Shown: positions 3,035 through 58,437 of the stretch, piece after piece
Numbering within the stretch: the stretch's first letter is position 1
Layout of the letters: each line of letters opens with the position of its first letter
From: Siphonodentalium dalli
Lineage: Eukaryota > Mollusca > Scaphopoda > Gadilida > Siphonodentaliidae
NCBI GenBank assembly: GCA_032622095.1
Contig: CP136067.1
Location: forward strand, 52,119,899-52,183,898
Reading direction: 5' to 3'
Length of the DNA stretch: 64,000 nucleotides
Notes under the pieces: model-generated
Told to the model about the DNA's origin: nothing
Database searches by the model: none
What the model saw: only the letters and a program-made list of their open reading frames with translations
Made by a program: the position numbers and the translations under genes

Positions 3035-3480
3035 GCGCATGCGCACAGCGCAGAATTCAACAAACGTACATTATTTGAAGCGATCGGGTAAAGCTCTAGA
3101 TTGTTGCGCGGTTCGCAGGATTGTAGAAAGACACCATTTCGATCACTCTTTTTGGTTTAAATTAGTATTGCATACATAATCAGTGTTCTGTCATATGTGA
3201 GTAAGGCGCACGCAGTTTCTTATTTGAGTCGATTTGTTTCGCGCATGCGCATAGGATAAAATGATAAATGTATGGATTTTTGTGAAATGATACAATCACA
3301 TCAAGGATCTCCATAGTACATAAATTTTCGTTATACAGATTCACGTTTTGACATTGCACCAGAGTAGTACTGTGGAAATGGGTTGCATGGTCACAATGCC
3401 ATCTAGTCCGATCTACTTGCGCATGCACATTACAAACACGTGGTCAAATCGTGCATTATTGAGCAATTATGTAAAGTTTA
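3035..3480. other. Interior of the TTAA element without gene
   Basis: No coding-like frame. Several GCGCATGCGC-type palindromes occur (near 3036, 3240 and 3420). The tail (about 3488-3590) matches the repeated unit that reappears at about 12040-12160 and marks the sequence into which the LINE inserted. Confidence 0.4.
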
Positions 3481-3599
3481 AGACTCGTAGCACCATTTGA
3501 ACATGACCATCACCGTGCCCTATAGGCGATGTCTAAAACGGGACGTAATGCAATTGAATGCACAGGGAAGTGGTGTCATTCGATCACTTGGGCTATATG

Positions 3600-5125
3600 T
3601 ATAATTGGCAGCATATATAGACCAAACACAGCTCCGAGGGCAGATGTTGACAAATTTATGAAAGAGATTGATGGCATTATGGGTAAACTAAATCAAACAA
3701 ACAGTAAAGCATATCTTATAGGTGACTTCAATATAGATCTTGTGAATTTCGACAATCATGAAAAAACGCGTACATTCCTCGATAACGTTTTCACTCTCGG
3801 TTTCACTCCTAGCATCACGAAACCAACCAGGATAACTGAACACTCTGCTACTTTAATTGATAATATCTTCACAAACAACTTGTCTGAAAGTACATCAGGC
3901 ATTATCATTACAGACGTCTCGGATCATTTGGCGACATTTCATATCGAACGTTCAAATTTTAAAAGAACTTGCAATGGAGCATCTGTCTTGGAACCATTCA
4001 GAATTTTTAGTGAAAGGAACATAAACAAATTCAAGGATATATTGTCAACATCAAGTTACGAAGACGTATTAAACTGTGAATCAGCAAACGAAGCTTATGA
4101 CCATTTTCTAGAAATATATATGTCTGCATACCATACTGCTTTCCCCCTAAAATACCACAAACCACCAACGAAATATTTAAAGCACCAGCCGTGGATGACA
4201 AAGGGACTTTTAATATCTTCATTGGAGAAAAATAAATTATATATTCGTAAATTAAAATCCCCGACAAATGCTAATACACATGCATACAAAGAGTACTACC
4301 ACGTATATAAGAGAACAATGCGCAACAGAAAAAAACTATATTATTGCGACAAAATTAACAAAGCAAAGAATGATATGAAAGCGACCTGGATAATCTTAAA
4401 ACAAGCAATGAATAAAAATTGTGAACCTCATAGTCCTCCAATAGCATTTATCGATGGTGAAATGAAGATAATACATAAAAAGCAAATAGCGGAACGATTC
4501 AATGAATACTTCTCAAAAATTGGAAACTTGACTAGTGTAAATGTTGACGAAGTCAGCACACATTACACTGATTATTTGATCAATAGAGAATCGGATGATT
4601 TAGAAATAATTCAAACAACAGAACAGGAAATAATACTCACATGCTACTCATTTAAAGTCAAAGCAAGTAAAGATGTACATGGTCTATCAAATCAATTGAT
4701 GAAATCATCTATTTATGAAACAGCCAAAGCTCTTAAGCATATATTTAATCAATCGTTCAAAGAAGGAGTTTTTCCGAAGAAAATGAAAATATCAAGAGTA
4801 ATACCGATTTTCAAGGGTGGGCAAAAAGAAAACTTTTCAAACTATCGACCTATCGGCATATTACCATGTTTTTCAAAAATACTCGCAAAAAATTATGCAA
4901 AAGCGAATTGTAGATTTCTTTGATGAACATGCACGTTTCTATAAACATCAATATGGATTTAGGAAGGGGCACTCCACCATACATCCAGTAATGCATCTTT
5001 TAAACCATGTTGTTGAACAGAATGACAAAAAAACCAAAGATTCAACCTTAGCAATATTCATTGACCTTTCAAAAGCATTCGACACAATAAGTCATGAAAT
5101 CCTACTAAATAAGATGGAACACTAT
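3600..5125 (+). pseudogene. LINE ORF2, left part: endonuclease remnant and N-terminal half of reverse transcriptase
   Basis: The translation opens inside an apurinic endonuclease domain (IGSIYRPN, GDFNIDL, SDHLATF) and runs into reverse transcriptase (VIPIFKGG, NYRPIGILP, FIDLSKAFDT). The element is 5'-truncated: the host repeat runs up to about 3600, so the start codon at 3529 is host sequence, not an element start. A frameshift at about 4885-4895, in an A-run, moves the frame from the 464-codon ORF to the one ending at 5125. Coding then stops at the foldback insertion and resumes in frame at 10149. The layout fits CR1/Jockey-type non-LTR retrotransposons. It is dead through truncation, frameshift and insertion. 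Confidence 0.88.
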
Positions 5126-6480
5126 TAGTCCGGGAGCTAATAGGGGTACCCTTGCACCCCCCCTGGGACTTAACTTCACCCAATTTATTTTGTTCCTTAT
5201 TATGTCCTTCAACTTTTAAGCAATGTTAACAAGAAAAAAAAGTGGCCGTGTAGACTCCAGACAAGATGGCGTCCATCATGGCCGCCGTTTTTCAGACCAG
5301 ACCCTAGGTCAGTTTTATGCAAATTATAGCGGGAAAATCTTGTAAAATGTATACAAATGTATATATTTTCGTGAAGCTAAGACATAATGACACTTTTTTG
5401 GGCCAAAATTGAAACTCACCATCCAAGATGGCCGCCAAAATGGCCGCCGGAAGTTGAAAATATGACATTTTTTCACAAATATCTTCTAGATCAATTCATG
5501 CTGTTTGGAACTGGTTGAGTAATATGACTTTATTTAGTGTTGTGTATATTAACTGATCATTGGAGCAATTAAATGTGCAACTAATGGGGTCCTAACCCCT
5601 TCTGGTCCATCAAAAATTCGAATTTACAGAACGCGGTACAAAATTTTACAAAAAATCACAATTGGGATTCTAGTCATATTTCAAAAAGAAATGAAAAGAA
5701 CTTTGTAATGTAAATGAGGCATATCATTACCTATGAATATTCCAACTCTCTGGAACCAAAAATCTTACCTTGACTCAAAATGGCTGCGAAAATGGCCGCC
5801 AAAATATGGAAAATGGTAAATATTGCCCCAGGGTGTCCTGCAATCGCTTACAAGTTGTGGTTGATGTATACAATTGGTTAATCTGTATTCTATACATTGC
5901 ATACTAACATCTCTGATGCACCATGGATCATATTTACTATTGTCACCACTGACATCACCAGAAATATGGGATTTTTCTCTCACAAACTTGACATAAGTAT
6001 CGGCAAAAATTAACTTTTCAGGGTTCGACCATTTGTTCAAGTAAAATGCAACTATCTTTGGTATCAAAGGTGTTTATTGTTTTGGTCTATCTTAAGTGTG
6101 TCACACGGTGGTGTTTAAAGACTAAAATGCTCAAGATGGCTTCCAAAATGGCAACCAAATTTGTAAAAAGTTAAAAGTTAACATATCCCGAACATTATTC
6201 TCTGCGTTATCCGAAAAAGATAGCAAATTGTGACTCACTTGGTTATTTTACGTATTTGTTAATTAACTGACAAATACGTTCTATTATATTTGTCTCCGTT
6301 CCGTGTGGGGCATGACAAATTCATTTTAAAGTTGCAGTATGGAATTTTGCGGAGAACCTCTTTTGTGATTCTGGCCATATTATTGAAAGGAAATGGGCAG
6401 AACTTTGAGACGGAACTGAAATGAACCATCATGATATGTGGGTATTCAGGCCCACTATGATACAAATTTATCAACTGGAT
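5126..6480 (+). repeat. Left arm of foldback A
   Basis: This arm pairs with 8790-10148. It holds repeated AAGATGGC(G/C)GCC-type motifs (near 5266, 5427, 5779, 6134 and 6497), the binding consensus of YY1-class zinc-finger proteins. Short frames in it (for example 5765-6067) have inverted counterparts in the other arm and no domain, so they are not genes. Confidence 0.8.
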
Positions 6481-8789
6481 ACAGGGTGGAAGCCAAGATG
6501 GCAGCCACGGAGTTACTCTATGGTCATAGATGAGGATAATAGGTATACAGGGAGTTATTGTATGGTCATGAATGATGTGTGGGTATATAGGGAGTCCCCT
6601 GTTGGTGACGGTGGGACATATATTTATATATGTTGTGGATGTGTTATCATTGGTGGTGTATGGGGAATAGATGTATGATCATGGATGGCGTGTATATAAC
6701 TTATGAGTGGCAAGTATGGAACTTATGAGTGGTCGTATGTGCGGGTATTGGTATATCTGGAAGGGATCACCATTGGTATTGTGCATATGTATACCTGGAT
6801 TGACTCTATGGTCATGTGTATGGCGAATATGTATACATGTGGTGGCTGTATGGTCCATGGTTAGGTGAATATGTATACAATGAGTGACTGTATGATCGTG
6901 AATGTAGTGAATATGTATACATAGAGTGACTTTTTGGTCATGTGTCGGGTGTAGGTGTATACCCAAGTATGGTTGCATGATCAGGTGTACGTGTATAAAG
7001 TGGGTTACTATGTTGGCATTTGTGTGGTGTTTATGTACATATGGAGTGACTTGGGTGGGTTGTACATGTGTATCTTGGGTGGCTATCGCTTTCCACAATA
7101 ACTCAAGGGTATGTTAATCAATAGAGAGGTCATGTCAGAGAGTTCTCCATCTTGGTGATGTTTATGTAGATGGGGGACGTTAAGCTGTATACATGTATAC
7201 ATGTACACCTGGCCCATGACCACTGGTGACCATACAGCCATGCGTCACAATGCAGGCACACCGTGTATACTCCTAAACATGACCCATAACCATATAGTCA
7301 CTCCTTGTATACCCATTCATCTCACCATTGGCCATGAGGTCACCCCCTGTATACCTATTCTCCAAACGCATGGTCAAATAGACAATCAATATCTACATCA
7401 ACACCATAAAGTCATTCCGGTATACATATGCACCTCACCAATGGCCATATAGCCACTCGCTTCATACACATACCCTCACCCATATCACCTGGTATACTCC
7501 TTCACCTGACCTATGGCCATATAGTCACCCCGTGTGTACCTATTCAAAACATTCATACATGATCATGGCCAATCCTTGTATACATATTCACCTCAACATT
7601 GGCCATGTCACTACCTGTATCCCTATTTGTCACACCATAGCCGAATAGCCACTCAAGATATACTAATACACCCCATCCATGTCAGTATAGCCACTCCATG
7701 TATGCATATGCACCTCATCCATGGCCATATAGCCACTCGCTATATACTCATATCCCTCGCCCATGACAATAAAGCAACACGTGTGTATGCTGGTATAACC
7801 TACACATGACCATACCGCCACAGGAACAGGAAACCAAACAGGAACACCAGGTATACGCCTGACACATGACCATTTAGTCACCCCCTGTATAGATGTTCAT
7901 TACATTTGTGACCATACAGTCACTACCTGTATACCTACATGTACTCATCTCACCATTAACAATACAGTCACTACTTGTACACATATTCGACACATATAGT
8001 CATATAACCACTCGATATACATAATCAGCACACCCTAGACTATAGATTCACTCCAGGTATACATGTAAACCTCACTAATGGCCATTCATCCCTTCCAGAT
8101 ATACAAATAAAAACCGCACACACGACCACTCAAACACTCCATACTTGCATATACACCTCACACATGACAATTAAGCAATTCACTGCATAATCATACACGC
8201 CATCCATGATAATACAGCTAAGCCTTATACACCCACAAATGATAATACATCCACCATTACCACACGGACACTCCCTATATACCCACACCCTCGATAATGT
8301 CCACCCAGCTTACTCCAGGTATTCATATTCAATCATGACCGTACAGTCATTCCATGTATACATGTACACATTACCAGTAACCATAAAATCACTCCCTATC
8401 TATCCACACACACCATCCATGATCACACAGACAACACATGCACATACCACCCATGACCTTACAGTCACTCCATATATACATAATCAACACATAGATGACC
8501 ATGTAGCTATATCCATACACCACACCAATGAACATACAGGTACACCGGTTGCACCCGTACTGAATATACACAATCATACACCATAGCGTCACTCCATGCA
8601 CACCGATTGACCTCACACCTGACCATGACCTCTCCCTGTATACCTAGATGCATCTTACCATGGACAACCCACTCATAACCATATAGTCACTCATTGTATA
8701 CCTACTCACATCAGTCATGACATACAATAACTCCCTGTATACCTATTCACCTCACATATGATCATAGAGTAACTCCCTGGCTATGATCT
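6481..8789. repeat. Inverted minisatellite core of foldback A
   Basis: From about 6500 to 7180 the plus strand carries degenerate units of roughly 50 bases built from GTATAC..GGAGTGACTGTATGGTCATG. From about 7200 to 8790 the same unit appears reverse-complemented (CATGACCATACAGTCACTCC). The switch point lies at alternating TGTATACATGTATACATG near 7190. The many 60-140-codon frames here in several phases come from repeats poor in stop codons, not from genes. Confidence 0.8.
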
Positions 8790-10148
8790 TTGCATCCACA
8801 CTGTATCCTGTTGACATTTTATAATAATGGACCAGAATAGCCAAAGATTATGGTCCATCTCAGTTCTGTATCAAAGTTCTACCCATTTCCTTTCAATAAA
8901 TGTGGCCAAAATCACAAAAGAGGTTCTCGATAAAATTGCATACTTTAAAATGAATTTGTCATGCCCCATACGGAACTGAGACAACCATAATAGAACATGT
9001 AGTTGTCAGTTAATTAACTAACATGTATAATAACCAAGTGAGTCACAATATGCTACCTTTTCGGATAATGCAGAGAATGTTCGGGATATATGTAAAAAAT
9101 TTACATTCTACAAATTTGGTTGCCATTTTGGAAGCCATCTTGAGCAATTTAGTCTATAAACACCGTAGTGAGACACATTTAAGATAGACCAAAACAATAA
9201 ACACCTTTCAATCCAAAGATAGTTATATTTTACCTGAAAAAATGGCCCAAACCTGAAAAGTGAATTTTTGCCAATATTTATGTCAAGTTTTTGAGAGAAA
9301 AGTCCAATATGTTTGACGATGTCAGGGGTGACAATTGTAATAATTAACCATGGTGTATCAGACATGTTAGTATTCAATGTATAGAATGCAGAATAGCCAA
9401 TTGTATACACCAACCACAACTTGTAAGCGATTGCAGGACACGCTGGTGTAATATTTACCATTTTCCATATTTTGGCGGCCATATTGGCAGCCATTTTGAG
9501 CCAAAGTAAGAATTTTGGTTCCAGTGATTTGGAATATTAATAGTTAATGATATGCCTCACTTACATTACAAAGTTCTGTTCATTTCTTGTTGGAATATGA
9601 CTAGAATCCCAATTGTGATTTTTTGTGAAATTTTGTACCGCATTCTGTAAAATCGAATTTTTGAGGGATCGGAAAGGGTTAGGACCCCAATAATTGTATA
9701 TTTCGTTGCTCCAATGATCAGTTAATATACAAAACACAAAATAAAGTTGCATTACTCAACCAGTTCCAAACAGCATGAATTGATCTAGAAGATATTTGTG
9801 AAAAAAATTTATATTTTCAACTTCCGGTGGCCATTTTGGCGGCCATCTTGGATGGTGAGTTTCAATTTTGGCCCAAAAAAGTGTCATTATGTCTCGGCTT
9901 CACGAAAATATATACATTTGTATACATTTTACAAGATTTTCCCGCTATAATTTGCATAAAACTGACCTAGGGTCTGGTCTGAAAAACGGCGGCCATGATG
10001 GACGCCATCTTGTCTGGAGTCTACACGGCCACTTTTTTTTCTTGTTAACATTGCTTAAAAGTTGAAGGACATAATAAGGAACAAAATGAGTGGGGTGAAG
10101 TTAAGTCCCAGGGGGGGTGCAAGGGTACCCCTATTAGCTCCCGGACTA
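8790..10148 (-). repeat. Right arm of foldback A
   Basis: Reverse-complement copy of the left arm. It includes the AT-rich stretch of the arm, the CCATCTTGGATGG region near 9845, and the GGCGGCCATGATGG cluster near 9988. It differs from the left arm by scattered substitutions and short indels, so the copy is not a simple assembly mirror. Confidence 0.8.
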
Positions 10149-11216
10149 TATGGTATCAGGGGGATTGCTAATAATTGGTTTAGAGACTACCTATATGAGA
10201 GGCGACAATATACAGATTATAGTGGAAACATTTCCAGTCTATCCAAAGTTTCATGTGGTGTCCCTCAAGGATCCATACTCGGACCAACAATTTTTTTAAT
10301 TTATGTCAACGATATGTCAGTATCCACATCCTTAAATTTATTATCATTCGCGGATGATACAACCCTATATACATCAGGCTGTGACAAAAGCGTTGTCGAA
10401 GATAGGGTAAACTTAGAACTAAAAAATATTCACGACTGGTGTTGTTGTAATAAGCTCTCCATAAACAAAAATAAATGTAATTATATGCTAATTCATCCAG
10501 AAAATAATGATCAAAAATGGAAAGATTTGAAATTATATATAAACACAGCTGAACTAAACAGAGTTGGGAATATATATGAAGAAACATCCTTGAAATTTTT
10601 GGGCATTAATATCGACGAGAATCTCACGTTTAAAAAGCATATTTCAACTGTATGCTCTAAGATGGCTCGAGCTATTTATTGTATCAACAAAGTTAAAAAG
10701 TTCTTTCCGGGTGACGCACTGCGAACTCTATATTACGCACTTATCAACAGTCATATGGTATACGGCATTCAGGTATGGGGTCATGTGGCAACCACTAACA
10801 AGATATTTTTATTGCAAAAAAGGGCGATTAGAACAATAACCAATGCTAGATACAACAGTCACACAGAACCAATTTTCAAAACAATGAACATTCTAAAATT
10901 CTGTGACATTTATACATACCAAACGTCAGTATTCATGCATGACTGGGCTTATAATAGACTGCCAGGGACCTTCAAAGACTCATTCGGTGTTAAACTAGGA
11001 ACCAGCAGTAGACCAAAAGCAACACCAAGAACAAAATTTTCAGAAAATCTCCCAGAACATTCATATTCGAATATATGGAACTCAGTTAATAAAAAACAAA
11101 AAACTAATAGGAATCGATATAACTATAAAAAACTGATGAGTGTAGAATTTATCAACCAGTATTCCAACAAAATTGAATGCAAAAACAAATTTTGCCCTGA
11201 TTGCACACACAAATGA
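10149..11216 (+). pseudogene. LINE ORF2, right part: reverse transcriptase core and C-terminal domain
   Basis: Continues the LINE interrupted at 5125. It carries the template-grip motif GVPQGSILGP, the catalytic FADDTTLY box with its two aspartates, and a long C-terminal region ending in a stop at 11214-11216. The apparent start at 10062 lies inside the foldback arm and is artificial. The frame is intact over about 355 codons, so the foldback insertion is young compared with the decay elsewhere. The C-terminal part (TITNARYN, FMHDWAYNRLP) resembles that of CR1/Jockey-like elements. Confidence 0.88.
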
Positions 11217-12543: not shown

Positions 12544-12547
12544 TTAA

Positions 12548-12890
12548 GTAGTCATTTTGTACGAATTTTGAGCTCGTTAGCGCGATAACTTCAACAAACG
12601 TCATCCGATTCAACTAAAATTTGGTATATAAGTGTCTTCCAATAATATCCTGGACGAGTTCGAAAACCAGCCTGGCCCAATAAAATTTGATAGAGTTATG
12701 GCCCTTAATTAGTCATTTTTCGTGAATTTTTAGCTCGTTAGCGCGATAACTTCAACAAACGTCCTCCGATTTGTTTAAAATTTGGAATAGACATACTTGC
12801 CAAGAATATTTCGGACGAGTTCGAAAACCAGCCTGGCCCGATAAAATTTGATGGAGTTATGGCCCTTAATTAGTCATTTTTCGATTTTAC
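12548..12890 (+). repeat. 160-bp tandem array, right part
   Basis: Resumes the array broken at 2794, in the same orientation and phase. AGCTCGTTAGCGCGATAA occurs at about 12571 and 12731, and GAGTTATGGCCCTTAATTAG twice. The array is therefore older than the piggyBac-type insertion. Confidence 0.78.
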
Positions 12891-25547: not shown

Positions 25548-26300
25548 TAGCTCAACTTTACTTGTAAATTTTGAGCTATTGTCATGGCTTGGTGTCTGTG
25601 TGTGCGTCATCTATGGAGATGTCCGTCAACAATTTCAAATAGCATGGGCTACAGGTCATACCTTTGGGGGGATCAATATTAAATTTGTCTTGGCTGTTGG
25701 CATTGATATGTAGATGGGAACGAGTCATTTTGGGGACAAAAAAACATGGCTGCCAGTGGCCATCTTGGATTTCAAAATTCAGTCCATTAGCACAGGCTAC
25801 AGGCTACAGGCCATACTGTTAAGTCTAATCTAATCATAATGAAATTTGTCATGGATGTTATTATTGACATGTAGATGAGAACGAGTCATTTTGGGGGTCT
25901 TTCGGCCATAAAACATGGCCATATTGGATTTTGCTCTTTGCATGACTAAATCATTTGGCACGGGCTACAAGTCTTACCTTTGGTTGGATCATTATGAAAT
26001 TTGTCATGGCTGTTGACATTGACAAGTAGATGGGAACGAGTCATTTTGGGGTCATCTTGGATTTCAAAATTCAATCCATTAGCACGGGCTACAGGTCGGG
26101 ATTGTTCGTCTGATCATCATGAAATTTGTCGTGGAAGTTAATATTGACATCTAGATGGGAACGAGTCATTTTTGGGTCATTCGGCCATAAAACATGGCTG
26201 CCGGCAGCCATCTTGGATTTTACTCTTTGCATGTCTAAATCCTTTGACACCGGCTACATGGCTTCGTGGAGTACATTATGTCCAATTTTCAAGGCAATAG
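25548..26300 (+). repeat. Tandem repeat (tagctcaactt family), left copy
   Basis: Begins TTTAGCTCAACTTTACTTG. Units of about 150-250 bp share GGCTACAGGTC, ATCATTATGAAATTTGTCAT, GTAGATGGGAACGAGTCATT and CGGCCATAAAACATGGC. A shorter cluster in the same orientation lies at 40066-40400. The giant foldback therefore seems to sit inside, or be flanked on both sides by, this repeat. Confidence 0.72.
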
Positions 26301-26304
26301 TTCA

Positions 26305-27580
26305 ATTTGTGACTAAAGCATGAAACTTTGCACATATGTACAATTCACATGCTAAATGATATTAGATATGGAGCCATGCTGAAATTTCACTTTAACCCAG
26401 TGTTTAACCCCTCTTTTAATGGGTTTTTCAAATTTAAAGAGCGTTTCATGATTATATAATTTATTAATGTCGGAATTAATCTTACCATCAAACATGCAAT
26501 ATAAAATTTGGCATATACATTAAGTATGATTCTGTGAGATATAATGCCACATTTTATGGAAAATTTTGAACTCCCGTCAAAAATGGCGATAAAAATGGCA
26601 GCCGGAAGTGGAAAATATGATTTTTTTCACTAATATCTTCAGTTTCTGCTGTACGGAACTGGTTCAGAATTGTGACTTTATTTTTGTATTATTCATATTA
26701 ACGGACCATTGGAGTAATGAAATAGGCCCATTCATGAGGTGCCAGCCCCTTCCGAACCCTCAAAAATTTGATTTTTATAGAACTTGGTATGAAATTTCAC
26801 CAAAAATCATATTTCAACAAGACATGGACACAGAACTGTGCAAACTAAGTGAGGCATATAATTACATATGAATATTTCAACTCAATAGAAACAAAATCGT
26901 CACTTGGGCTCAAAATGGCGACCAAAACCTCGGAAATGGTAAATATTGGACCAGCATGCCATGTAATCTCTACAAGTTGTGGTCGATGAATAAAATTGGA
27001 TATTCTGTCTTATATACATTAAATTATAACATTTCTGATGCACATTGGTTAAGTGTTAGTAATATAACCAATGACAATACTAGAAAGATTTGATTTTTCT
27101 ATCACAAACTTGACATCAACATCAGCAAAAATTAACTTTTCAGGTTTGGACCATTTATTCAAGTAAATGGAACTATCTTTGGAATCAAAGATGTATATTG
27201 TTTTGATCTGTCTTAAATGTGTCACACTGATGTGTTTTTAGAGAAAATTAATCAAGATGGCTTCTTTTTTTATATAACAATTAATCAAGATGGCTTTTTT
27301 TTTTATATAACATACATCCCGAACAATATTCTCTGTTCCCAAGAGGTAGCAAATTGTGACTCCCTTTGTTATTAACCATGTTACTTAATCCACTGACTAC
27401 TACATGTATCATTCTCGTTGTCCCAGTGCCTTCTGAGGCATGATAAATTCATTTCAAATGATGTCTTAGTATGGAATTTTGTCAATAATGTCTTTTAGGA
27501 TTCTGGCCATATTTTTAAACGGAAATGGGCAGAACGTCTAAACGGAACTGAGTGAAGCCATAATATGTGGCTACTCTCAC
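26305..27580 (+). repeat. Left arm of foldback C
   Basis: Shares with A the TCAAAAATGGCGATAAAAATG region, the GTACGGAACTGGTTCAGAAT region and the TCTGGCCATATTTTTAAACG region, in the same order toward the core. Two near-identical ATCAAGATGGCTT segments at 27252 and 27285 show a local duplication. No gene; frames such as 26608-26871 are arm sequence. Confidence 0.7.
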
Positions 27581-27966
27581 CCTTTGAATAAAAATCAACT
27601 TAATATATGGTGTATGTTAAAATGGCAGCCAGAGAGTGAATGTGTGGCCATAGATGAGGTGAATACTAGTAGTTCTATGGGGAGTTATTGTATGGTCATG
27701 AATGGTGCAAAGGAGCTGCTATATATTTTGTGGTGTATCCATGGTGAGATGTATACAATGGGTGACTAATGACTATGGTCATGTGTGATGTGAATAGCTA
27801 TACAATGATTGTGTGTATGGTTATCGAAGTGGTGTATGGGTATAATGATAGTAGCTGCATGGTCATCTGTGTATTGTTTATGTATACGATGTATATGGTG
27901 ACCATATGCCCATGTATGACTTGTCATGGATGGGTGTATATGTATACATATATTGGCTGTATGACC
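27581..27966 (+). repeat. Minisatellite core of foldback C, left remnant
   Basis: TATGGTCATG and GTATAC-containing units, like the core of foldback A. Cut at ATG|TAGTCC by foldback B. Confidence 0.7.
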
Positions 27967-27969
27967 ATG

Positions 27970-28928
27970 TAGTCCAGGAGATATTGGTCGACCTCTGCAC
28001 CCCCCCCCCCCAGGGACTCAACTTCACCCCACTAATTTTCTTCCTTTAAGGTCTCCTATAAATTTTTTTCACTTGTTAACAAGAATAAAAAGTGGCCGCA
28101 TAGACTCCAGACAAGATGGCGTCCATCATGGCGGCCATTTTTTTTTAATGCACCATGTCTCTTTGGTCGCCGTTATAGTAAAGATATCACATGCGGTCTT
28201 GTTTTCTGCTCGATTCGTTATGCTAATATACAGCCCTTACAAATTAGCCAAAAATCCGACACCAGAATCCAATATGGCGGCCAAGATGGCCGCCGAAATG
28301 TGAAAATATGCAATTTTTCTGACATGTTACCACCTTTCGTTTGTTTCTGTGGGAAAATGTTGGCATCTTTGCGTCATGTTATACATTTATCATATAGAGA
28401 AGTCATTTTCGACCACATAGGGACCATAATATATATTCATTGCGGAATATTTTTGTCCGATATAACGTTTTCCCAAATGCCGGTATAATGGGTCAAAGCC
28501 GAATCTACGTTAATAACGCGATGTAATGTTTCGAATCAATGAATGTTATTGCTATTATAACAACACACATGCATATATATGTGCATAAGATACTCGAGCT
28601 ATGATTCCTCTTATACCTGAGTTGATGAATATTTACCCAAATCCAAGATGGCGGCCAATATGGCCACCCGAAATAAAAAATTGCCGATTTTAACATCAGT
28701 GAGCATTATTGTCATGAAAACTCCACACCTGCTTACTATTGTGAGTTGGGAACACTTAGGCGAAGAACTTTCCTTGTAACATATCCAAATAAAAGTACCC
28801 CAAATCCACAATGGCGGACAGATTTGGAAAAATCACCGAAATTCCCTCATATTCACATTATTGGGCATTATTGTCGAGACAACTCCACCCATGGTTACAG
28901 TTGAGTTGGAAATACTGAGGTGAAGTAA
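27970..28928 (+). repeat. Left outer arm of foldback B
   Basis: Inverted partner of about 32610-33596. It contains AAGATGGCGTCC (28113), AATATGGCGGCCAAGATGGC (28272) and CCAAGATGGCGGCC (28645), all YY1-like motifs. Short frames in both arms mirror each other. Confidence 0.8.
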
Positions 28929-29060
28929 TTACAGATTCTGATTTGCCACGTCACATCCATAATTATCTGGACCAGCTTCCATTTCTTTGTCTGATAAATC
29001 TAGGTAGCTCACACCGACAAAGTATTCACCACTTCCTTGGAGTAGGGTCCCTCTAATCAT
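28929..29060 (-). other. Short coding-like frame inside foldback B (43 codons)
   Basis: On the minus strand an ATG at 29060 opens a frame with residues such as GTLLQGSGEYFVGVSYLD and CDVANQ, ending in TAA at 28929. Composition looks more protein-like than its surroundings. No domain is recognised and there is no mirrored copy that I can see. It could be a captured exon piece or chance. Confidence 0.2.
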
Positions 29061-29149
29061 ACCGTTTCAAACAATTCATTTTCCGGTGTCTAGCTTACGA
29101 TTTTAAATATTTGCTAAATATGATATTTGTGCGTCATCTTGAACTATGA

Positions 29150-30770
29150 AGGCATATGACCGATGAGTATACAAGCTTACAGAAGGTCATCTCTATGTAT
29201 GTGTCTCATACCCCATGGGGATAACGACATGTACACCTGGCGAACCAGTTAGCTAGTCACTTCTCAATAGATGGTTCGTCAACTCACAAACTCAGCAAAC
29301 GTATTGGCATATGTGGACAACTTCGACAGTGTTTCGAAGGTTGCTAGCTGTCTCATTCCCTTGGACAGATGTCTATCTGCTAAGGAGAAGACCATAGTGT
29401 ACAGACTACCCACACTTCTTGACCATGCTCCGAAGCAAACTGTGTGACGCCCTGCATTTGTCTCGTCGAATATCTCCCAGCAGAGAAGAACAATGCTCGC
29501 GGTGCTAGTTTATGGACATGCGCCATGATAGTGGGAATGAAATGGGCCACGGTATACACCATCCCTACACCTGGTGCATGTTTAAGATATAGAATGTCAT
29601 GCGTGTCGGTTTTATTTGGTGTGGTAAGATTGTATGTCCACATCAGTTTCGAAGCCTTTCTGATTCAACTACGTACATTTTTGTCTGGATAATACTATGC
29701 TAGCCTCCCTCAAAACAGTCGGATGGACTGAAGGATAATGTCTTTATAGCATGAATGTATGCGGTTTTTTTTATCCTCTCTAGGGGTTAGTGTCAGTATG
29801 TTGGCGGTATTATTCAAGAAAATGTCAGGAACTCTGGTGCATTTATTTCACTATGTATTTAAAGAACAATTTACAGTCTCGATGGCAATGACTGTGGACG
29901 TTGGGGAACGCGACCTTTATGGTCATATAGCTTTATATATATAACTTTAGAATATAGCAGTTAATGTCTCATGCAGGAAAATGTTCGCAATGGTGATGTT
30001 ACCAAGAAATCACTTGGTGTACCAACGTTTGTTGAACTGAATGCAAGAGCTCATCAACGTAACATTCCTCTGGATGTTCTTCGCGTTGAAGATTTCACCC
30101 TTTTGTTGATGGCATTTGTACTTTCTTGAACCATACCACCCAGCGTGAGTATGACCTATCAACCAAATATCAAAGGTATCGCCTTTAAGACTACACCCCA
30201 GTCTTGGTGGGGCTTATACAGCAGTAGCCAGTGGCACACGCCTGGTCCAGCTGTTTAAGAACGGCTTCCAACGGATGGGAACATACAATCTTAGCATACA
30301 AGGAAAGCAAAGCCACACATGAGATCCTGTCTGAATCTAAAACATAACAAAATAAGGGGCGGTGCAATCATTGTCCAATTTCATTTCCACTATCATGACA
30401 CATACCCACAAACTAGCACCGTGTGTATTGTTATCATCTGCTTGGATATGTTCGGTGAGACGATTGCTGGACGCCAACAAGCGTGTTCTTATGATCATGT
30501 TCAATGAGAATGGGTATATTATGCATTATGGTCTTCTACGCCTTATCAGAAATGCATCCGTCAAATGTCGGGCTTTCAACATTCGAAGCCATATTCAGAA
30601 GTTGTCCGGGTACGTCACTGCATTAGATGAGCATGCGAATTGATGAACCATATATTGGGAAGTGGCTGTTTGGGAAGATCACCAGGTGTACACGTTGTTA
30701 TCCCCATTGGGTCACCAAAGCTGACAATACGCAGATAGATCCTCCTGAAAGCTAGTATACGCATCGACCG
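29150..30770. repeat. Inner inverted repeat and centre of foldback B
   Basis: GGGGATAACGACATGTACAC near 29217 is mirrored by GTGTACACGTTGTTATCCCC near 30685, and CGGTGCTAGTTTATGG near 29500 by the inverse near 30405. Related minus and plus frames (29643-29380 and 30362-30643) share the residues THKLAP or VHKLAP, so the arms are copies of one formerly coding-like sequence. The centre (about 29650-30320) is unpaired. Product unknown; possibly a decayed transposase. Confidence 0.6.
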
Positions 30771-30944
30771 AATACCTTTCTAGTGTATCGCACAAGATGA
30801 CGCCTATACCTCATATGTAGCATCTGAATTATACCATAAGCTATACCACGAATGAAGCTCGCTAAGAATTCCAAGCTTTCGAAACAAACACGTGAGCTGG
30901 ACACCGGCACATGTATTGTTTGAAACATTCCGATTAGTGGCACC

Positions 30945-32014
30945 CAGGGATGTGGCGTGGCTAGAGGGTCTCCTTTAGGGGGTGTCCACCTTGGGAATTT
31001 CCAACTGCACCCCCCCCCCCCCCCCCCCCTTGAGTCGGAAACACACCAACACAACTTTTTGCATAATTCCATTTGCACCCACCCCCTTGTACCTCATGCT
31101 CAGGCCTAATTTCCTATATATTCATAAGCCATGCTTCTATGTTCCCAGTATGAGAACATTAAGATATTTTAACCTGAAAATTGGCCCCCAAAAAAACAAC
31201 TAGTGGTCTAATTCCAGACAAATGCACACAGCTATCGACAACATACCAGGAAACACCGGGCCGACCATGGTTGTTTGGCCCGGTGTGAGAAAATTTTGAA
31301 AACTATACAAGAAAATCGCAAATCCTAGCATCTAGACTAGCTTCAACTGAAGCTTTCCTAGTGTTGGAAATTTCAAACCTCATGATCCCCCTCAGGTTGG
31401 AAAATTCTTCAACTGATGACCATTTATGTCTACAAGTTTGACCAAATGTAGTAAAATATTGTTTTGCTAAACTAATTAGCAGTTTTGTATTGGCCATGCG
31501 GATGGGGCTATGAATACACACCGGGCCGACCCAGTTCGGCCCGGTGTGCGAAAAATTTGAAATCTGAACAAGAAAATCGCAAAATACTAACATCTAGACT
31601 AGCCTCAAGCCTTCCTACTGTTGGAAATTTCAAACCCTACACCCCCACTTAGGTTGGAAAATTTCCAACTGATGACAATTCCAATGACAATGTTGACCAA
31701 TTGCATGACAATATTGTTTTCTTAAATTAACTAGACGTTTTTGACTAGCCACGGGGGAGGGACCAGGACACAAGCTTTCCAAGTGTTGGAAATTTCCAAC
31801 CTGTCACCCCCCTAAGGTTGGAAAATTTCCAACTGATGACCATTTCTGTCGAACTTTTTGACCAAAAATAGGAACATATGCAAATATTGGTCGAAAAACA
31901 ATAAATTCCCCCCAATAAATTGTTTTTACCTGAAATTAGGAATTTCCAACTATTGAAAATATAGCTCTCTGCTGGGGGTGAGACACCCCACACCCCCCTC
32001 TAGCCACATCCCTG
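30945..32014. mobile_element. Non-autonomous hAT element (1.07 kb) with 8-bp TSD
   Basis: CAGGGATGTGGC...CTAGAG at the left faces CTCTAGCCACATCCCTG at the right, and GTGGCACC is duplicated on both sides (30937-30944 and 32015-32022). CAGGG termini with an 8-bp TSD define hAT. Inside, two long direct repeats around CACCGGGCCGACC (31255 and 31519) and several TTGGAAATTTCCAAC palindromes recur. No transposase. A decayed relative is at 62570-62810. Confidence 0.88.
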
Positions 32015-32022
32015 GTGGCACC

Positions 32023-32609
32023 CTTCTACAAAGAAGTGTAGTAAACTGTTGTTGTGAGTGCGATAGATTAATCTGACGAAGAGACGGAAACGGGTCTAGA
32101 TAATGCTGAATGTGGCAATTCAGAATAAGCTCAGGTACTGTAGTTTTGATTCTTGGAAGTCATAATATGACTATTCGGCGCACCTATATACGGTTACGGC
32201 CAGTATGAGCCCTTAGTGGAGAATGGATTTTGAAATGCCACATCGCGATTGTGGTTTTCATCATTCCAAAAGGCTACGACTTACATTGGAACTAATATAT
32301 GGTTTATATTATGTACCGTTTCGTCTATACAAATCGATTTTATGACAAAAAGTTTAAATTGGTATGTGATAATATCGGCTTCTTTTCAATTTCTGGCCGC
32401 CAGTTTGGCCGCCATATTGACTGAGTGTCACTTGCCAAACCCTAATGAATAATTCATACATATCAACATGTAATGGTGGGTAGAAATCGCGAAACAATAA
32501 CGCCCATCCTAAGAAAGTAAAGGAATGTAGGCGTATATTTTCAAATTTCGGTCGCCATTTTGGCCGCCATCTTCGATTTGGAAAACCATTTCTTGCTTGA
32601 GATGTAAGG
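32023..32609. other. Unpaired part of foldback B between the hAT element and the right outer arm
   Basis: No gene. Two further GGCCGCCA(T/G)-type motifs near 32396-32415 and 32553-32573 resemble the arm motifs, so this may be arm sequence deleted from the left side. Confidence 0.4.
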
Positions 32610-33596
32610 TAATTACTTCACCTCAGTATTTCCAACTCAACTGTACGCATGGATGGAGTTGTCTCGACAATAATGCCCAATGATGTGAATATGAGGGAAT
32701 TTCGGTGATTTTTCAAAATCTGTCCGCCATTGTGGGCGCCATTTTGGATTTGGGGTACTTTTATTTGGATATGGTACAAGGAAAGTTCTTCGCCTAAGTG
32801 TTCCCAACTCACAATAGTAAGCAGGTGTGGAGTTTTCATGACAATAATGTTCACTGATGTTAAAATCGGTGATTCTCGGCAATTTTTTATTTCTGGTGGC
32901 CATTTTGGCCGCCATCTTGGATTTGGGTAAATATTCCTCAACTCAGGTATAACTCAGGAATCATAGCTCGAGTATCTCCTGCACATATATATGCATGTGT
33001 GTTGTTATAATAGCAATAACATTCATTGATTCGAAACGTTACATCGCGTTATTAACGTAGATTCGGCTTTGACCCATTATACAGGCATTTGGGAAAACGT
33101 GATATCGGACAAAAATATCCCGCAATGAATGTATATTATGGTCCCCATGTGGTCGAAAATGACTCCTCTATATGATAAATGTATAACATGACGCAAAGAT
33201 GCCAACATTTTCACACAGAGACAAACGAAAGGTGGTAACATGTCAGAAAAATAGCATATTTTCACATTTCGGCGGCCATCTTGGCCGCCATATTGGATTC
33301 TGGTGTCGGATGTTTGGCTAATTTGTAAGGGTTGTATATTAGCATAAGAATCGAGCGGAAAACAAGACCGCATGTGATATCATCTTTACTATAACGGCGA
33401 TCAAAGAGACATGGTGCATTTTTTTAAAAATGGCCGCCATGATGGACGCCATCTTGTCTGGAGTCTCTGCTGTCGCTTTTTTTTCTTGTTAACAAGTGAA
33501 AAATATTATAGGAGACCTTAAGGAAGAAAATTAGTGGGGTGAAGTTGAGTCCTGGGGAGGGGGGGGTGCAGCGGTCAACCAATATCTCCTGGACTA
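32610..33596 (-). repeat. Right outer arm of foldback B
   Basis: Inverted copy of 27970-28928, ending in CTCCTGGACTA. Differences include single-base substitutions and C-run length, so both arms are real independent sequence. Confidence 0.8.
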
Positions 33597-33599
33597 ATG

Positions 33600-33904
33600 T
33601 GTGGGTGTATGAATAAACAGGGAGTGGTTGTATGCTTACCCGGTATGTGTAATGTATATATGTTTACATGGAATGACTGTACGTTCGTGATTGTTGACAT
33701 GTATATGCATACATGGAGTATAGCTGGATGGTCACTGGCGGTGTGTGGGTATATACGAAGCGCCCTTGTGGCCATGGTTATATAGGTGATGTAAATGATC
33801 TCTGTCATGGCTGTATTGTCATTGGTGGATGTATTTGTATACAGAGAGTACATGTGGCTACATTATCATACATGAGAGTCATCAAAGCCGTATCTCATAT
33901 CATA
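33600..33904 (+). repeat. Minisatellite core of foldback C, middle remnant
   Basis: Degenerate TATGGTCATG/GTATAC units between foldback B and the second LINE, in the same orientation as 27581-27966. Confidence 0.6.
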
Positions 33905-33943
33905 AAAATGTGAGTCTATATATGTTTTAAACAGTTCTATACT

Positions 33944-34881
33944 TCAAGCAGAAACTATGAAATCTGGTAGTGAATTCCAATGTGGGATAACTCTATTTGT
34001 AAAGTAGAATTTTCTCGTGTCCTTTATAACCACTTTCTTTTGTAATTTCTGTTCATGCCCTCTGGTATTGGTGCTCAGGGTCTTTTGAAATAACTGATAA
34101 GGGTCCAAGATATAGTGTCCATTCATCATTTTGTACAGTTCAATGAGATCCCTCCTGAATCTTCTGAATTTGAGTGACATTAAATTCAGTCTTATCATGC
34201 GTTGCCGATAAGGCAAATTTCTCACAAGAGGCAACATTTTCGTCGCTCTTCGCTGTATTCGTTCGATCTCTATGCTTTGATGTTTATAATGTGGGCTCCA
34301 AGCTGCGTTGCAATATTCTAGTACTGGCTTTACCATGGCGATATACAGTGTTCTGAATGTGTCGATGTCGAGGTTAGTGAATGTTCTGTCACCCCGAGAA
34401 TCATATTTGTTTTGCTGCAAATACAATTAACGTGTTCATTAAACTTCAATTGTTCATCTATAACTACGCCGAGGTCGCGCTCCGTTGTACTATATATAAT
34501 GATTGGTTCTGCAGTTGTGTCCAACATACGGTATTTATTTCTCGGGTTGTTGTGTATGACGTGGATCTTTGCAGAATTAAAATACAACTGCCATTCTAGG
34601 GACCACTTGCAGACAGAAGCTATATCTTCTTGGATGTTGTCGATTCGCGGATTTCCGATTAGTTTTGTATCGTCCGCGAAAATTTGACATGTCCCTTTGA
34701 TATTTTCTGGGAGATCATTGATATAAATGACAAAAAGGATAGGGCCCAGCACACTTCCGTGAGGAACGCCACTTGTCACGTTGATCCACGATGAAAGGTG
34801 GTCATTGACTCGCACACGTTGTTCTCTGCCAAGGAGAAAGTCCCTAGTCCAGTTATGGATGTTGTTGCTTATACCATACAA
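33944..34881 (-). pseudogene. LINE reverse transcriptase palm and C-terminal region, frameshifted
   Basis: Frame 34881-34330 holds GVPHGSVLGPILFVIYINDL and the catalytic FADDTKL box. After a shift near 34400 the frame 34426-33944 continues with the thumb-like and C-terminal region typical of CR1/Rex-like elements (ERIQRRATKMLP, VIPHWNSLP). Both active-site aspartates are present but the gene is broken. Confidence 0.85.
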
Positions 34882-35298
34882 TCAAATTTTCATCAGTAAT
34901 CTCTCGTGTGGGACACTATCAAAGGCCTTTTTAAAATCTAAATAAACGGCATCAATGGGTTCGTTGTTATCCAGGTTGACGGTTACGTTATCTAGATATT
35001 CAATTATTGTATCTTGCACGAGCGGCCTTTTCTGAATCTATGTTGACCGTGACAGGATACCATAAGGCCGTTCTCTTCCATGTGTGTAACAATGGCATCT
35101 CGGACGAAAGATTATAATATTTTGCACACTGTACACGTAAGGCTTATATACTGGGCGGTAGTTGCTAGGGTTTGATTTCGAGCCTCTTTTAAAGATATAT
35201 GTAATGTTTGCTTTCTTCCACATTATTTGTATACGTCCTTCGGTGAGGGAGCGATTGAATAGTATACAAAGGGGCTGGCTTAGCTCTGATGCTGTTTT

Positions 35299-35670
35299 CA
35301 GGGGCGCCGGAAGCATCCAAGGTCAGGGGGCGGGCAGAGCCTACAAAAAGGGCACTTTTCCGCAAAAAAAGGGCATTTTCTCCGCAAACTCGGGAAAATA
35401 ACCATAAATTCATTGTGGCAAAAATCCCTATTTTAATGGTATTTGTCGGTTTTTATGGCCGTTTTGTGATAAAATTGACAAAAAATTAATATTCTTTGTG
35501 AAATTGGTGGTATTTGGACCAAAAAAGTCACACTTTGCTATAAAAACACGAGATTAAACACACAAAAAGCATTTTCTGTCTCCAGAAAAAGGGCAAGTCC
35601 TGCCCCCGCTCGCCCCCCTTGGTCATGCAAGGGCAGGGGGGTCAGCTGCCCCCCTCTTCCGGCGCCCCTG
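35299..35670. mobile_element. hAT-type MITE (372 bp) inside the second LINE
   Basis: The 15-bp TIRs CAGGGGCGCCGGAAG and CTTCCGGCGCCCCTG are perfect. GCTGTTTT is duplicated on both sides (35291-35298 and 35671-35678). CAGGGGCG ends and an 8-bp TSD are classic hAT features. The interior is AT-rich with GGGCA-rich subterminal repeats and no gene. Confidence 0.92.
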
Positions 35671-35728
35671 GCTGTTTTTCTTAATAATCGGGCTGGTATT
35701 CGGTCCGGTTCTGGACTTTTGTTGACAT

Positions 35729-36235
35729 TTAGACAGCGTATAGTGTCTGCTCTATGGCCGTTGGTGTTATCTGCAAGTCGACTATATCGCTAGATTTAGC
35801 TGGCAACTTCATGGTTTGCATGTTACCTTTATCTTCCTGGGTAAAGACTGATGCGAAAAATTTGTTCAGGATGTCTGCATTTTCTTGGTCTTTAGTTACC
35901 AACGGTTCGCCTTCGTTTTGTTTAAGGTCCGAGATTCCACGCCCGACCTTCGTTTTACTCTGTACATCTCTCCAGAAAGCCTTCGGGTTGTATTTGCTCT
36001 CTTTGGTTATTTTATTTTCAAAAGTTTGTTTGGCAGCTTTCAGATGTTTGTTAGCTAATTTGCTTGTATTCTTGATATGCAGTGGCATTACATGTTCGCT
36101 TATATCACTTGTATGCCAACCTCTTCTGGCGAATGATTGTAAGTACATATTTATTTGCCCATGGACATCTGTCCTTCTTGTAGTTACCCATGGGCGAGTT
36201 GTATTTGCAAATATGGAGTGTTTGAATGGTCGTGG
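35729..36235 (-). pseudogene. LINE linker region upstream of the reverse transcriptase
   Basis: Frame with FANTTRPWVTTRRTD, KAFWRDVQSKTKVG, and ENADILNKFFASVFTQE, the conserved linker (xxFWxxVxxKxK...NxFFxSVFT) between endonuclease and reverse transcriptase in CR1-like LINEs. The first 25 codons of the open frame (36316-36242) are minisatellite, not element. The opposite-strand 200-codon frame at 35754-36356 is its shadow. Confidence 0.8.
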
Positions 36236-36240
36236 TTTTT

Positions 36241-37094
36241 CCATTAGTGATGTGTATATGATACTATATGAATACCTGGGTGTGGTGTATATGTATATTT
36301 TGAGTGGGTATACCATATATGGTCATGTGTGTGAAGAAAATGTATACCGGGAGTGACTGTGTGGTCAATAGTGAGGTGCTACGCGTTGTGTTGCTGTATC
36401 TAGAATGTCTGTGTGGTCAATGATGAGGTCTCGATGTATACCTGTAGTGATTCTAAAATAGGCATTGTAGTGTGTATGTACATTGTATATATTGGTTATA
36501 TTGCCATGTGTGTGGCCAATATGTATGCAGCCTGCAGGGGGTGATCGTATGTCCAATGGTGTGGTGCATTGGTAAACAAGGAGTGACTGTATGACCACGA
36601 ATATGGTGTATCGTATACAGCGTGTGGCTGAATTGTCTTGAGTGAGAAGTATATTCAAGTCTGGAATGTGTGAATGGCCCTGTTTGCGGGGCATTGGCAT
36701 ACATCAAAGGGTTGTATGTCCATTGGTGAGATGTATATGTATACCTGGAGTGACTATATGGGTATGATTGCAGTGTATATGTATATCTTGAGTGGCTATA
36801 TGGCCATGGATGCTGATGGATGTGGCAAATAAATATACAGGGAGTGATTGTATGGTCAATGGTGAGGCGAATAGGTATACAAGAAGTTACTGTATCATAC
36901 AAATATGTTTACAGGAAGTGACTATATGGTCATGGTTGAAGTGGAGGAGTATAGGTGTACCTGAATGGTGACATGTATGTATAGTCATGTTTGTGGTTTA
37001 CGGGTCAACCCAAGTGTGGTTGTATGGTAATGGATGAGGTGTATCTAACGAGTGGCTACATGGTCATTTGTGTGGTGTTTATGTATATATAACA
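36241..37094 (+). repeat. Minisatellite core of foldback C, right remnant
   Basis: About fifteen degenerate units with GGTGTATATGTATAC, GGAGTGACT and TATGGTCATG phrases. Reading frames of 110-150 codons on the minus strand (36365-36902) are repeat artefacts. Confidence 0.75.
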
Positions 37095-38080
37095 CTAGAA
37101 GGTGACCCGACTTCGTCCGGGCTTTGACCTTGAATTGTCTATTTTGAAGGCCAAGGTCAAGTGGGGTCACGATTTGACCCGTCCAAAACACTGCCCGTAC
37201 AAAAGTACCCGACAAAAGTACCCGTCGAAATCCATCCGGTTTTACCCGATTTGACCTTGTAGAAGGTGACCCGACTTCGTCCGGGCTTTGACCTTGAATT
37301 GACCATTTTGAAGGTCAGGTGGGGTCAAACACCAACGCCCCCAAAATGGTGGAAATCGGCCCAACGGATACCGGGAAATCGGCCCAGCGGATACCGAGAT
37401 ACCCTATGCATCAAATTTCGTCCGTAAAAATCCGCCAGTTTAACCCGATTTGATTTCCACTCAAGTATATAAACGCGCCTCATAGACACACGCTCATAAA
37501 TTATCAAGTTTCAACGTAAAGATAAATTACCATCGGTGCCCGAGATATCGCCAAGACGTCTGAAACAGTCAAATGCATCGGCCGGTTAAGCGTTAACGTG
37601 ATCTAACGTTATGACCTCAAACGACGTCATAGAAGTTACGCATTGTTTTTATCCTGATGGAAGATAGTACCACTTCTTCTTGATAATTGAGGCAGATAAC
37701 TAAAACGGATACATACGCATTATATATCGTTGGAAAGAGGAAACACGAAAGATTCTCACAGTGTCATTATTATGACTGGCATTTTATTATTGGCGCTGTT
37801 TCGAATCGATTTGTAAGCACCGAACTCAAATGAAAGTCCCGTAACACAGCGTAAAAACAGATTTGACCTCGGCACGTGAAAAGTTGACATCGGATCTGAA
37901 AATCAATAGGCCTATGTCACCCCCGGCCGAAAATACCCCCACATACCAAGTTTCATCGAAATCGGGTCGGCCGTTTTCGAGTTCATCGATTACACACACA
38001 CACACACCCACCCACCCCACACACACACACACACACAAACACACAAACAGATCTTCCAAAATATATATATATAACATGAT
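37095..38080 (-). mobile_element. Helitron-like non-autonomous element
   Basis: On the minus strand the 3' end reads hairpin CCCGGACGAAGTCGGG, then TCACCTT and CTAG with T following (plus-strand A at 37094). The head is duplicated at 37260. The other side holds an AC-rich microsatellite (37993-38050), then GATCTTCCAAAATATATATA, the same layout as the elements at 40816-42218. The 5' TC border is not clear. The host is the minisatellite core of foldback C. Confidence 0.6.
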
Positions 38081-38224
38081 TGTATGGTCATTGTGAGTCG
38101 GACCATTTGTGGCTATCACTTTCCTCAGTAATTCAAGTATATGTTTTAATCGATTGAGAACTAATGCCCGAGCGTTCTCCACCTTGGTGGCCTTTTATGT
38201 GTACAATGGAGGAAACGGTTTTCC

Positions 38225-39695
38225 TGACATTAGTCAATCAATCTTGATTCCAATGGCTCAGAATTGTTTTTAAGCAGTTTTTTCACTAATCTCTTGTTTG
38301 ACTTTCTAAAAGGCCTTCTGGTCCACCTGCCAGTGCATTATGCTGACTATTTCTCTGTCATTCTAGTGGAAATGCCGACCCCGATAGACATGTTACCTGG
38401 TCTGACTCTGACACCCACTTACCTATAATGGTTACACATGTGATTGGGCAAGAGTAGGCCTATAAGTATGCCCCACTCAGTTCAGTGTCAGAGTTACTCA
38501 TTTCCGTTCAAAATCATGGCCAGAATCACTTAAGACTTTTTGGGCAAAATTACATAATGCATGATTTAAAATGAAATTGCCATGCTGCATCAGGCACTGT
38601 GACAACCAGTTGTCAGTTGATGAAGTAACATGTTTCACAACTAAGTGAATCAATATGTGCTATCTTTACAGAAGAGCATAGAATAATGTCCGGGATATAT
38701 TTGAAAATATCAACTTCTCTGCCTAATTTTGTGGACATTTTGCAAGCCAGTTTGAGTATATTTTCCTAAAAACATATCAGTGTAAGGCGAATCAAAACAA
38801 TAAACACCAAAGATAATTCCATATTAAATGGTACAAACTTGAAGTTATTTTTTGCCGATTTTGAGAGAAATTTCCAATAATTTTGGTTATGTGATAGTAA
38901 CACTTATTCAAGATGCATCATACATGTTAGTATTCAATGTATATACGATAGAACAGCCAATTTATTAATCATTAACAACTTTTAAGCAATTGAATGGCAC
39001 GCTGGGACAATATTTACCATTTTCCATATTTTTGTCTGCCAGTTTTACAGCCGTTTTTAGCCAAAGTGACAATTTTGGTTCCATTGAGTTGAAATATTCA
39101 TGATAAATGGTATGCTTCACTTACTTTGCACAGTTCTGCACATTTATTGTTGAAATATGACTAGAATCCAAATGGTGATGTTTGGTGAAGTTTCGTACCG
39201 TGTTCTGTAAAATCGAATTGTTGAGGGATCGGAAGGGGCTGGCATCTCAAGAATGGCACATTTCATTGCCCAAGTGATCTGTTAACATGACCAATACAAC
39301 ATAAAGTCACATTTCCGAACCAGTTCCATATAGCAGAACCCTGATCTAGAAGATATTAGTGAAAAAGCGTCAAATCTTCCGCTTCTGGTTGCCATTTTGA
39401 CGGCCATCTTGGACTGGGAGTTCCAGTTTCGCCCTAAAAATGTGCCATTTTATCTCGCAAAGTCATACTTACTGTATATGCCTAATTTTAAATATCAGAT
39501 TCCATGATAAGATTAATTGTGACATTTAACAAAATATATAATCAGGAAACGCTCTTTAAATTGGCAAAAAACCCTAAAAGAGGGGTTAAAGTGAAATTTA
39601 AGCGTGGATCCATATCTAATATCAAATATATGTGAATATGTACATATGTGCAAAATTTCATGCTTTAGTCACGAAATGAACAATTCTTTTACCAA
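38225..39695 (-). repeat. Right arm of foldback C
   Basis: Inverted relative of 26305-27580 and of the arms of foldback A, including CATTTCCGTTCAAAATCATGGCC (shared in part) near 38499 and GACGGCCATCTTGGA near 39399. Clearly more diverged than the A and B arms. No gene. Confidence 0.68.
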
Positions 39696-58399: not shown

Positions 58400-58437
58400 C
58401 TAGAATTAGAATTAATGGACAGTGAGTATTATCGTCG
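58400..58437 (-). other. Splice acceptor region of the myomodulin exon
   Basis: On the minus strand ATTAATTCTAATTCTAG directly precedes the exon. TTCTAATTC could serve as branch site and pyrimidine tract, although the tract is short. The MITE at 58438 begins only 35 bases upstream of the acceptor. Confidence 0.6.

Follow-up and report, generated by a model that had tools for sequence, protein, structure and literature searches.

Two long palindromic insertions, elements A and B, lie in a 64,000-nucleotide stretch of the genome of the scaphopod Siphonodentalium dalli (contig CP136067.1 of assembly GCA_032622095.1, positions 52,119,899 to 52,183,898), referred to here as the window. By structure and behaviour, they belong to a family of foldback transposons: long, internally repetitive inverted arms surround a middle in which no transposase was found, and the target duplication has a constant length (3 bp in 30 out of 33 copies). 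We consider it very probable that A, B and their relatives form one non-autonomous family with three classes of ends (A, B1 and B2), moved in trans by a DDE transposase that generates 3-bp duplications, with outer arms kept alike by arm-to-arm copying.

The two elements have exact borders, share TAGTCC(A/G)GGAG termini and are flanked by the duplications TAT and ATG, respectively, as described in an earlier note made from the sequence alone (Table 1). The terminal 40 bases of A are identical on the left and right, and the two ends of B differ at a few places. The outer ~170 bases are common to A and B at about 80% identity. The border of A is supported by empty-site logic, because joining its flanks restores the reading frame of the long interspersed nuclear element (LINE) that it interrupts. 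This claim of the note was borne out: when the flanks were rejoined with a single TAT in a script, one 457-aa open frame crossed the insertion site. The LINE downstream of A matches RVT_1 (1.5e-15, Pfam), and its endonuclease side gave an E value of 0.00085, below the Pfam cut-off. This LINE has a separate break of its own between two frames, near positions 4800-4920, and related-looking 161-bp tandem repeats flank it on both sides (2171-2798 and 12544-12883). The elements had also been described as multi-kilobase palindromes with a minisatellite core. In the arm alignments, the palindrome is pronounced towards the outside and decays inward, and the core description holds for A but not for B. 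Tandem Repeats Finder (TRF) scores just two stretches of the A interior, 6776-6945 (period 42) and 8680-8779 (period 41).

Table 1. Elements A and B, an older relative and associated features (window positions).
Feature	Position	Strand	Basis
LINE interrupted by A	3526..11213	+	Restored frame; RVT_1 on the RT side, sub-threshold E value on the endonuclease side
TAT, 3-bp target duplication left of A	5123..5125		Flank comparison
Element A, non-autonomous foldback transposon, A-type ends TAGTCCGGGAGCTAATAGGGGTACC	5126..10148		Borders and arm alignment
A left arm	5126..7034	+	Element positions 1-1909 vs 3117-5023, 81.9% identity
A minisatellite-like interior (core and inner arms)	6776..8779		Sequence reading and TRF
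A right arm	8242..10148	-	Alignment to A left arm
TAT, 3-bp target duplication right of A	10149..10151		Flank comparison
Older diverged relative C, left arm	26296..27554	+	C arms 71.8% identical to each other
ATG, 3-bp target duplication left of B	27967..27969		Flank comparison
Element B, family of A, B1-type ends TAGTCCAGGAGATATTGGTCGACC (these 24 bases carry one change at the right end)	27970..33596		
B outer left arm	27970..28932	+	Element positions 1-963 vs 4640-5627, 92.6% identity
B inner palindrome	29075..30856		29075-29670 vs 30249-30856, 67.9% identity, 578-bp loop
hAT-like insert nested in B, ends CAGGGATGTGGC	30945..32014		Read from sequence; alignment gap vs copy L052
B outer right arm	32609..33596	-	Alignment to B outer left arm
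ATG, 3-bp target duplication right of B	33597..33599		Flank comparison
Older relative C, right arm	38474..39685	-	Alignment

We searched the genome (2.23 Gb in nine contigs) with a 24-base end pattern covering both the A and B end types, using the reversed pattern as a control. The search retrieved 1955 forward and 1954 reverse exact matches (3,909 ends), compared with none in the control. An A-type 25-mer had 368 and 367 matches, against 0 in its control. Half of the 3,909 ends corresponds to about 1,950 dispersed copies which, at ~5 kb each, would add up to ~10 Mb or about 0.4% of the genome. Pairing was carried out on the first 100 of the 3,909 ends (contig C1, up to 73 Mb) and yielded 31 convergent pairs. 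Leaving out one 56-kb pair, the remaining 30 span 1.9-10.1 kb, with a median of 4970.5 bp. Both ends, as read from the end list, were of the same class in all 30 pairs (8 A, 16 B1 and 6 B2), and TAGTCC(A/G)GGAG termini were present in A, B and 19 fetched copies. The earlier note named many copies with 3-bp duplications across the genome as support, and such copies are there (3,909 ends; duplications in 30/33). No description of a TAGTCC(A/G)GGAG foldback family was found in the literature listings searched; of the 17 papers that contain the 11-base end strings, the 15 listed have no transposon study among their titles. Viral contigs contained three matches to the end pattern, about chance level by estimate, the loci behind them not having been inspected. 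The pattern TAGTCCRGGAGG was as frequent in the control as in the query, so its matches are mostly chance.

Both flanks were compared in 33 copies, all located on C1 or in the window: the 30 pairs, A, B and L059, a copy with a mutated end. The 3-bp flanks were identical in 30 of them (19/21, 2/2, 8/9 and 1/1 by batch). Because L088/L089 and L090/L091 are one segmentally duplicated locus, the independent cases are 29 out of 32. Pairing the flanks of different copies gave a chance level of 28/420 (6.7%) identical at 3 bp, compared with 19/21 for the real flanks. At 4 bp, no match was found in 21 and 9 copies, nor in the 21 copies at any length from 4 to 8 bp. Duplications that differ in sequence and are constant in length had been proposed for A and B, and this pattern extends to the family; flanks without a consistent 3-bp duplication were not what the copies read displayed. 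The duplications are AT-rich, with A or T as the middle base in 27 out of 30 (19/19 in the first set and 8/11 in the later one). An A/T centre as a strict rule was rejected on the later copies and is retained as a preference.

Copies of a subfamily differ by ~2-3% substitutions (0.0195-0.0279 in five of the eight pairs compared; 0.0337, 0.0583 and 0.1097 in the other three, the last involving the internally duplicated L054), which indicates that the inner arms had diverged before the amplification. Internal deletions have shortened L055 and L057 to 1.9 and 2.0 kb, with both ends and the duplications retained. Among the first 100 ends, 38 were unpaired. Twelve of these were followed inward for 1.5 to 9.8 kb, and each starts as a known arm. 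They comprise ten 1.5-kb loci, two of them extended to 10 kb (L060 and L061), together with L062 and L063. L060 is a divergent, nearly complete A copy, left uncounted for duplication, with a right border too mutated to place; L061 carries A sequence to about 4.1 kb, and L062 is a truncated A copy adjoining a Gypsy-like element. Rare end variants with G/T at position 12 account for 30 ends in the genome. Nine of the ten such loci fetched (L063-L072) begin A- or B-like, some of them shortened or with other inserts, and L065 has no similarity to family copies.

The absence of a transposase from the elements, as the earlier note had it, is consistent with the copies read: no frame longer than 227 aa was present in 21 copies, and Pfam searches gave no match for three open reading frames (one in the insert nested in L042) or for three of the six frames of the L052 core, the stretch matching the inner palindrome of B. 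A coding remnant in the core was rejected on these searches. The subterminal motifs ATGGCNGCC and AAGATGGC occur two to seven times per strand in five copies, compared with 0.01-0.06 in single-base shuffles, and are putative transposase-binding sites; we take them to resemble the YY1 site. Another motif, GGCCGCCAT, recurs in the three B copies scanned but occurs in neither of the two A copies.

Large or odd copies were considered as candidates for other identities and rejected. The 10.1-kb pair L042/L043 is not an autonomous copy; it is an A copy that contains a nested element of 5.3 kb, and the 7.2-kb pair L054, also tried as an autonomous copy, carries an internal duplication. The element nested in L042 (C1:32926842-32936800) has ~195-bp inverted ends that are 96% identical, and its longest frame has no Pfam match. 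The 56-kb pair, rather than one large element, consists of two copies of one segmentally duplicated locus: L059, a complete B copy, is flanked by an ATA duplication of its own, and the right flank of L017 is the same. An inversion of the core between the arms was first suspected and then rejected, since L049 and L052 are 95.7% identical end to end; the copies are merely inserted in opposite orientations.

What is new here is that the outer arms of one copy share changes and its inner arms have drifted apart, together with an end swap in one copy. We compared seven B1-bodied copies, including L049, which has B2-type ends, and leaving out the deleted L055. Over 0-900 bp, the distance between the left and right arms of the same copy was 0.029, compared with 0.048 between copies (0/2000 permutations). 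The same-side distance (0.047) was no smaller than the cross-side distance (0.048), which means that side is not remembered in the outer arms of B1 copies. Further in, at 1000-1300 and 1300-1600 bp, the effect was weak (152 and 179 of 2000 permutations), and the inner arms had a strong side memory (own left-right distances of 0.201 and 0.330 vs same-side distances of 0.129 and 0.144). The eight A copies also had closer arms within than between copies over 0-900 bp (0.060 vs 0.069; 0/2000 permutations). In a tree of the outer arms, left and right arms pair up in most B copies; the long branch of L055_R is probably due to its partly deleted arm. The end-swapped copy, L040 (C1:26317171-26322657), has a B2-type body and A-type terminal ~100 bp on both sides. 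The arms switch within the same interval (103-129 on the left and 98-124 on the right; the offset of 5 equals the length of a C run): the A-type diagnostic bases stop, and the continuous B-type run starts, at matching alignment sites. Within the A tract, a single B-type base is likewise common to both arms. Finding the identical switch point on each side is what arm-to-arm copying would produce, and we read the arm patterns as repeated exchange between arms, in the copies or in their ancestors.

We then considered which transposase group could move such a family. PIF/Harbinger elements make 3-bp duplications of the sequence TWA; here, the 3-bp duplications have many sequences, TTA accounting for 2/19 in the first set and 0/11 in the later one; in this respect, the family departs from PIF/Harbinger. 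CACTA/EnSpm (CMC) elements have 2-3 bp duplications, subterminal repeats and CACTA/CACTG termini. The A/B family is like them in duplication length and subterminal repeats, and CACTA-type transposases are abundant in this genome. A 3-bp duplication also fits Zator. We know of no superfamily terminus that matches the TAGTCC motif. As a structural class, foldbacks can originate in more than one lineage; the majority seem to fall within Mutator, although there are exceptions (PMC4079207). Tetris of Drosophila virilis resembles the A/B family in its long inverted repeats, non-coding middle and internal tandem repeats, and in that no autonomous copy was found; it differs in its 8-10 bp duplications, a suggested Mutator affiliation and only three structurally complete copies (PMC4079207), compared with 3 bp and thousands of ends here. 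Galileo, a Drosophila element of the P superfamily, has foldback-like long repeats that are 98-100% identical within a copy, and exchange and conversion have been proposed for it, with chimeric copies lacking matching duplications; unlike the A/B family, it has 7-bp duplications and nearly complete copies with transposase sequence (PMC3573991). Neither the 8-10 bp of Mutator-type foldbacks (FB, Tetris) nor the 7-8 bp of P/Galileo is approached by the copies examined, with no match in 21 at 4 to 8 bp, 7 and 8 included. Duplications of 2 bp are given for the animal TRC group of CACTA (PMC1636069) and of 3-4 bp for AcademX (PMC10045372). The 3-bp duplication speaks against Mutator-type and Galileo-type foldbacks and fits CACTA, AcademX and Zator.

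A genome-wide search with PF02992 (CACTA-type Transposase_21) gave 78 matches, most of them without stops, with its 14 controls silent. CACTA-type genes with a 909-aa open frame form near-identical groups at many places (e.g. C6:1785449, C1:6370116 and C3:484959), and 12 similar copies, each with one TAG, lie at C7:18.9-24.0 Mb. Given these several groups of near-identical open copies, the CACTA-type superfamily looks recently active here. PF07592 (Zator/ISAzo13 side) had no match in the genome, and its 14 controls were equally silent.

Several observations weigh against a single family that is moved in trans, possibly by a CACTA-type enzyme, and homogenized between arms. Three of the 33 copies (L041, L045 and L078/L079) have no duplication, although this would fit what is expected of recombined copies. 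In A copies, the same-side distance over 0-900 bp (0.049) is smaller than the own left-right distance (0.060) and the outer-arm tree groups several close A copies by side, suggesting that exchange in A is older or rarer. The B2 copies (four, with L057 left out) point in the same direction as B1 with little power (1/24; 1/6 without L040), and the permutation test is blind to the difference between exchange in each copy and exchange in the ancestor of a subgroup. The autonomous relative that the earlier note hoped for did not appear, and no transposase-bearing relative was found among the copies read. None of the 78 Transposase_21 matches was linked to TAGTCC ends: the nine on C1 come no closer than 66.7 kb to a listed A-type end, and the three below 73 Mb are more than 0.6 Mb from any of the first 100 of the 3,909 ends. 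In two CACTA copies of the 909-aa group, the sequence from 1.0 to 3.4 kb upstream of the domain is unlike the foldbacks; these 2.4 kb are 99.2% identical between the two copies, the edge of the element lying further out. Finally, the family ends in TAGTCC(A/G)GGAG and not in CACTA/CACTG, and by this feature it is not a member of CACTA/EnSpm.

The long inverted arms, and the segmental duplication of some loci (L088/L089 with L090/L091; L059 with L017), could suggest that the palindromes are immobile products of segmental inverted duplication at their present sites. For the family as a whole, this is already refuted by flanks that differ between copies but carry identical 3-bp duplications in 30/33, by the restored LINE frame and by the about 1,950 dispersed copies, and we give it practically no weight. 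The likeness of the arms could also stem from selection on binding sites or from subgroup descent, without exchange between arms: the repeated motifs sit in the arms, and the permutations leave subgroup structure in place. The lack of side memory in the outer arms of B1 (0.047 vs 0.048) and the identical A-to-B switch point in the two arms of L040 speak against this explanation, which we consider rather improbable.

As to the mover, a CACTA/EnSpm-like source is our leading guess because such genes are abundant in the genome, and we hold it tentatively, at somewhat under an even chance, while assigning the family to no superfamily. The earlier note had raised the possibility of an undescribed superfamily. 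The real, high-copy foldback family with 3-bp duplications stands; a new superfamily does not follow from it, since foldback structure can arise in several lineages and several known superfamilies make 3-bp duplications. A mover of that kind would agree with a terminal motif that matches no superfamily terminus we recall, with an autonomous partner not being found and with the silence of PF07592 (shared by its 14 controls), but the missing partner rests on few copies and two family searches (PF07592 and PF02992), and we regard such a mover as quite doubtful. We are just as sceptical of a broader version, in which a foldback family with an undescribed transposase type (TAGTCC ends, 3-bp AT-rich target) would refresh the ends of a lineage through arm-to-arm copying; a change at one end, up to a switch of end class like that of L040, would thereby be passed on to the opposite end. 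Derivation from AcademX, and with it an AcademX-like transposase, is favoured by the 3-4 bp duplications reported for it (PMC10045372); no Academ coding trace was recognised in the three open reading frames and L052-core frames tested, and we consider this origin unlikely. A source other than CACTA/EnSpm or AcademX is a little less unlikely.

In the explanation that we prefer, a DDE-type transposase made elsewhere would bind the shared ends and the repeated subterminal sites (AAGATGGC / ATGGCNGCC), cut the element out and join it to a 3-bp staggered target, whose fill-in would create the duplication. Gene conversion or template switching during gap repair may then copy one outer arm onto the other and keep them alike, and the inner arms, unneeded for binding, would drift or be deleted.

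The foldback kind is already known, and no enzyme gene was found in the copies of this family that were read. Among the foldbacks compared, target duplications measure 8-10 bp in Tetris and 7 bp in Galileo; with its 3-bp duplications and high copy number, the present family would bring the foldback structure to a further transposase group. The copy number, the end classes, the end-swapped copy and the concert of the arms make the family a usable natural system for studying how a transposon keeps its two ends matched.

Other insertions surround element B or lie within it. The hAT-like insert in B is 1.07 kb long, with the 8-bp duplication GTGGCACC at 30937-30944 and 32015-32022. Compared with A-type arms, those of the older relative C are about 71-74% identical, and B and a LINE fragment lie inside C (26296-39685); outer ends of C were looked for and not found. 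The window, therefore, holds nested generations of insertion, C enclosing B and the LINE fragment, and B enclosing the hAT-like insert. To the right of C, 122-bp tandem repeat arrays occupy 40888-42066, and locus L061 seems to contain a similar unit. An Rfam search of the window returned nothing. At 57705-58451, on the reverse strand, there is an open frame with repeated MLRLGKR/MLRLGRR units and no Pfam match, presumably a mollusc myomodulin-type neuropeptide precursor.

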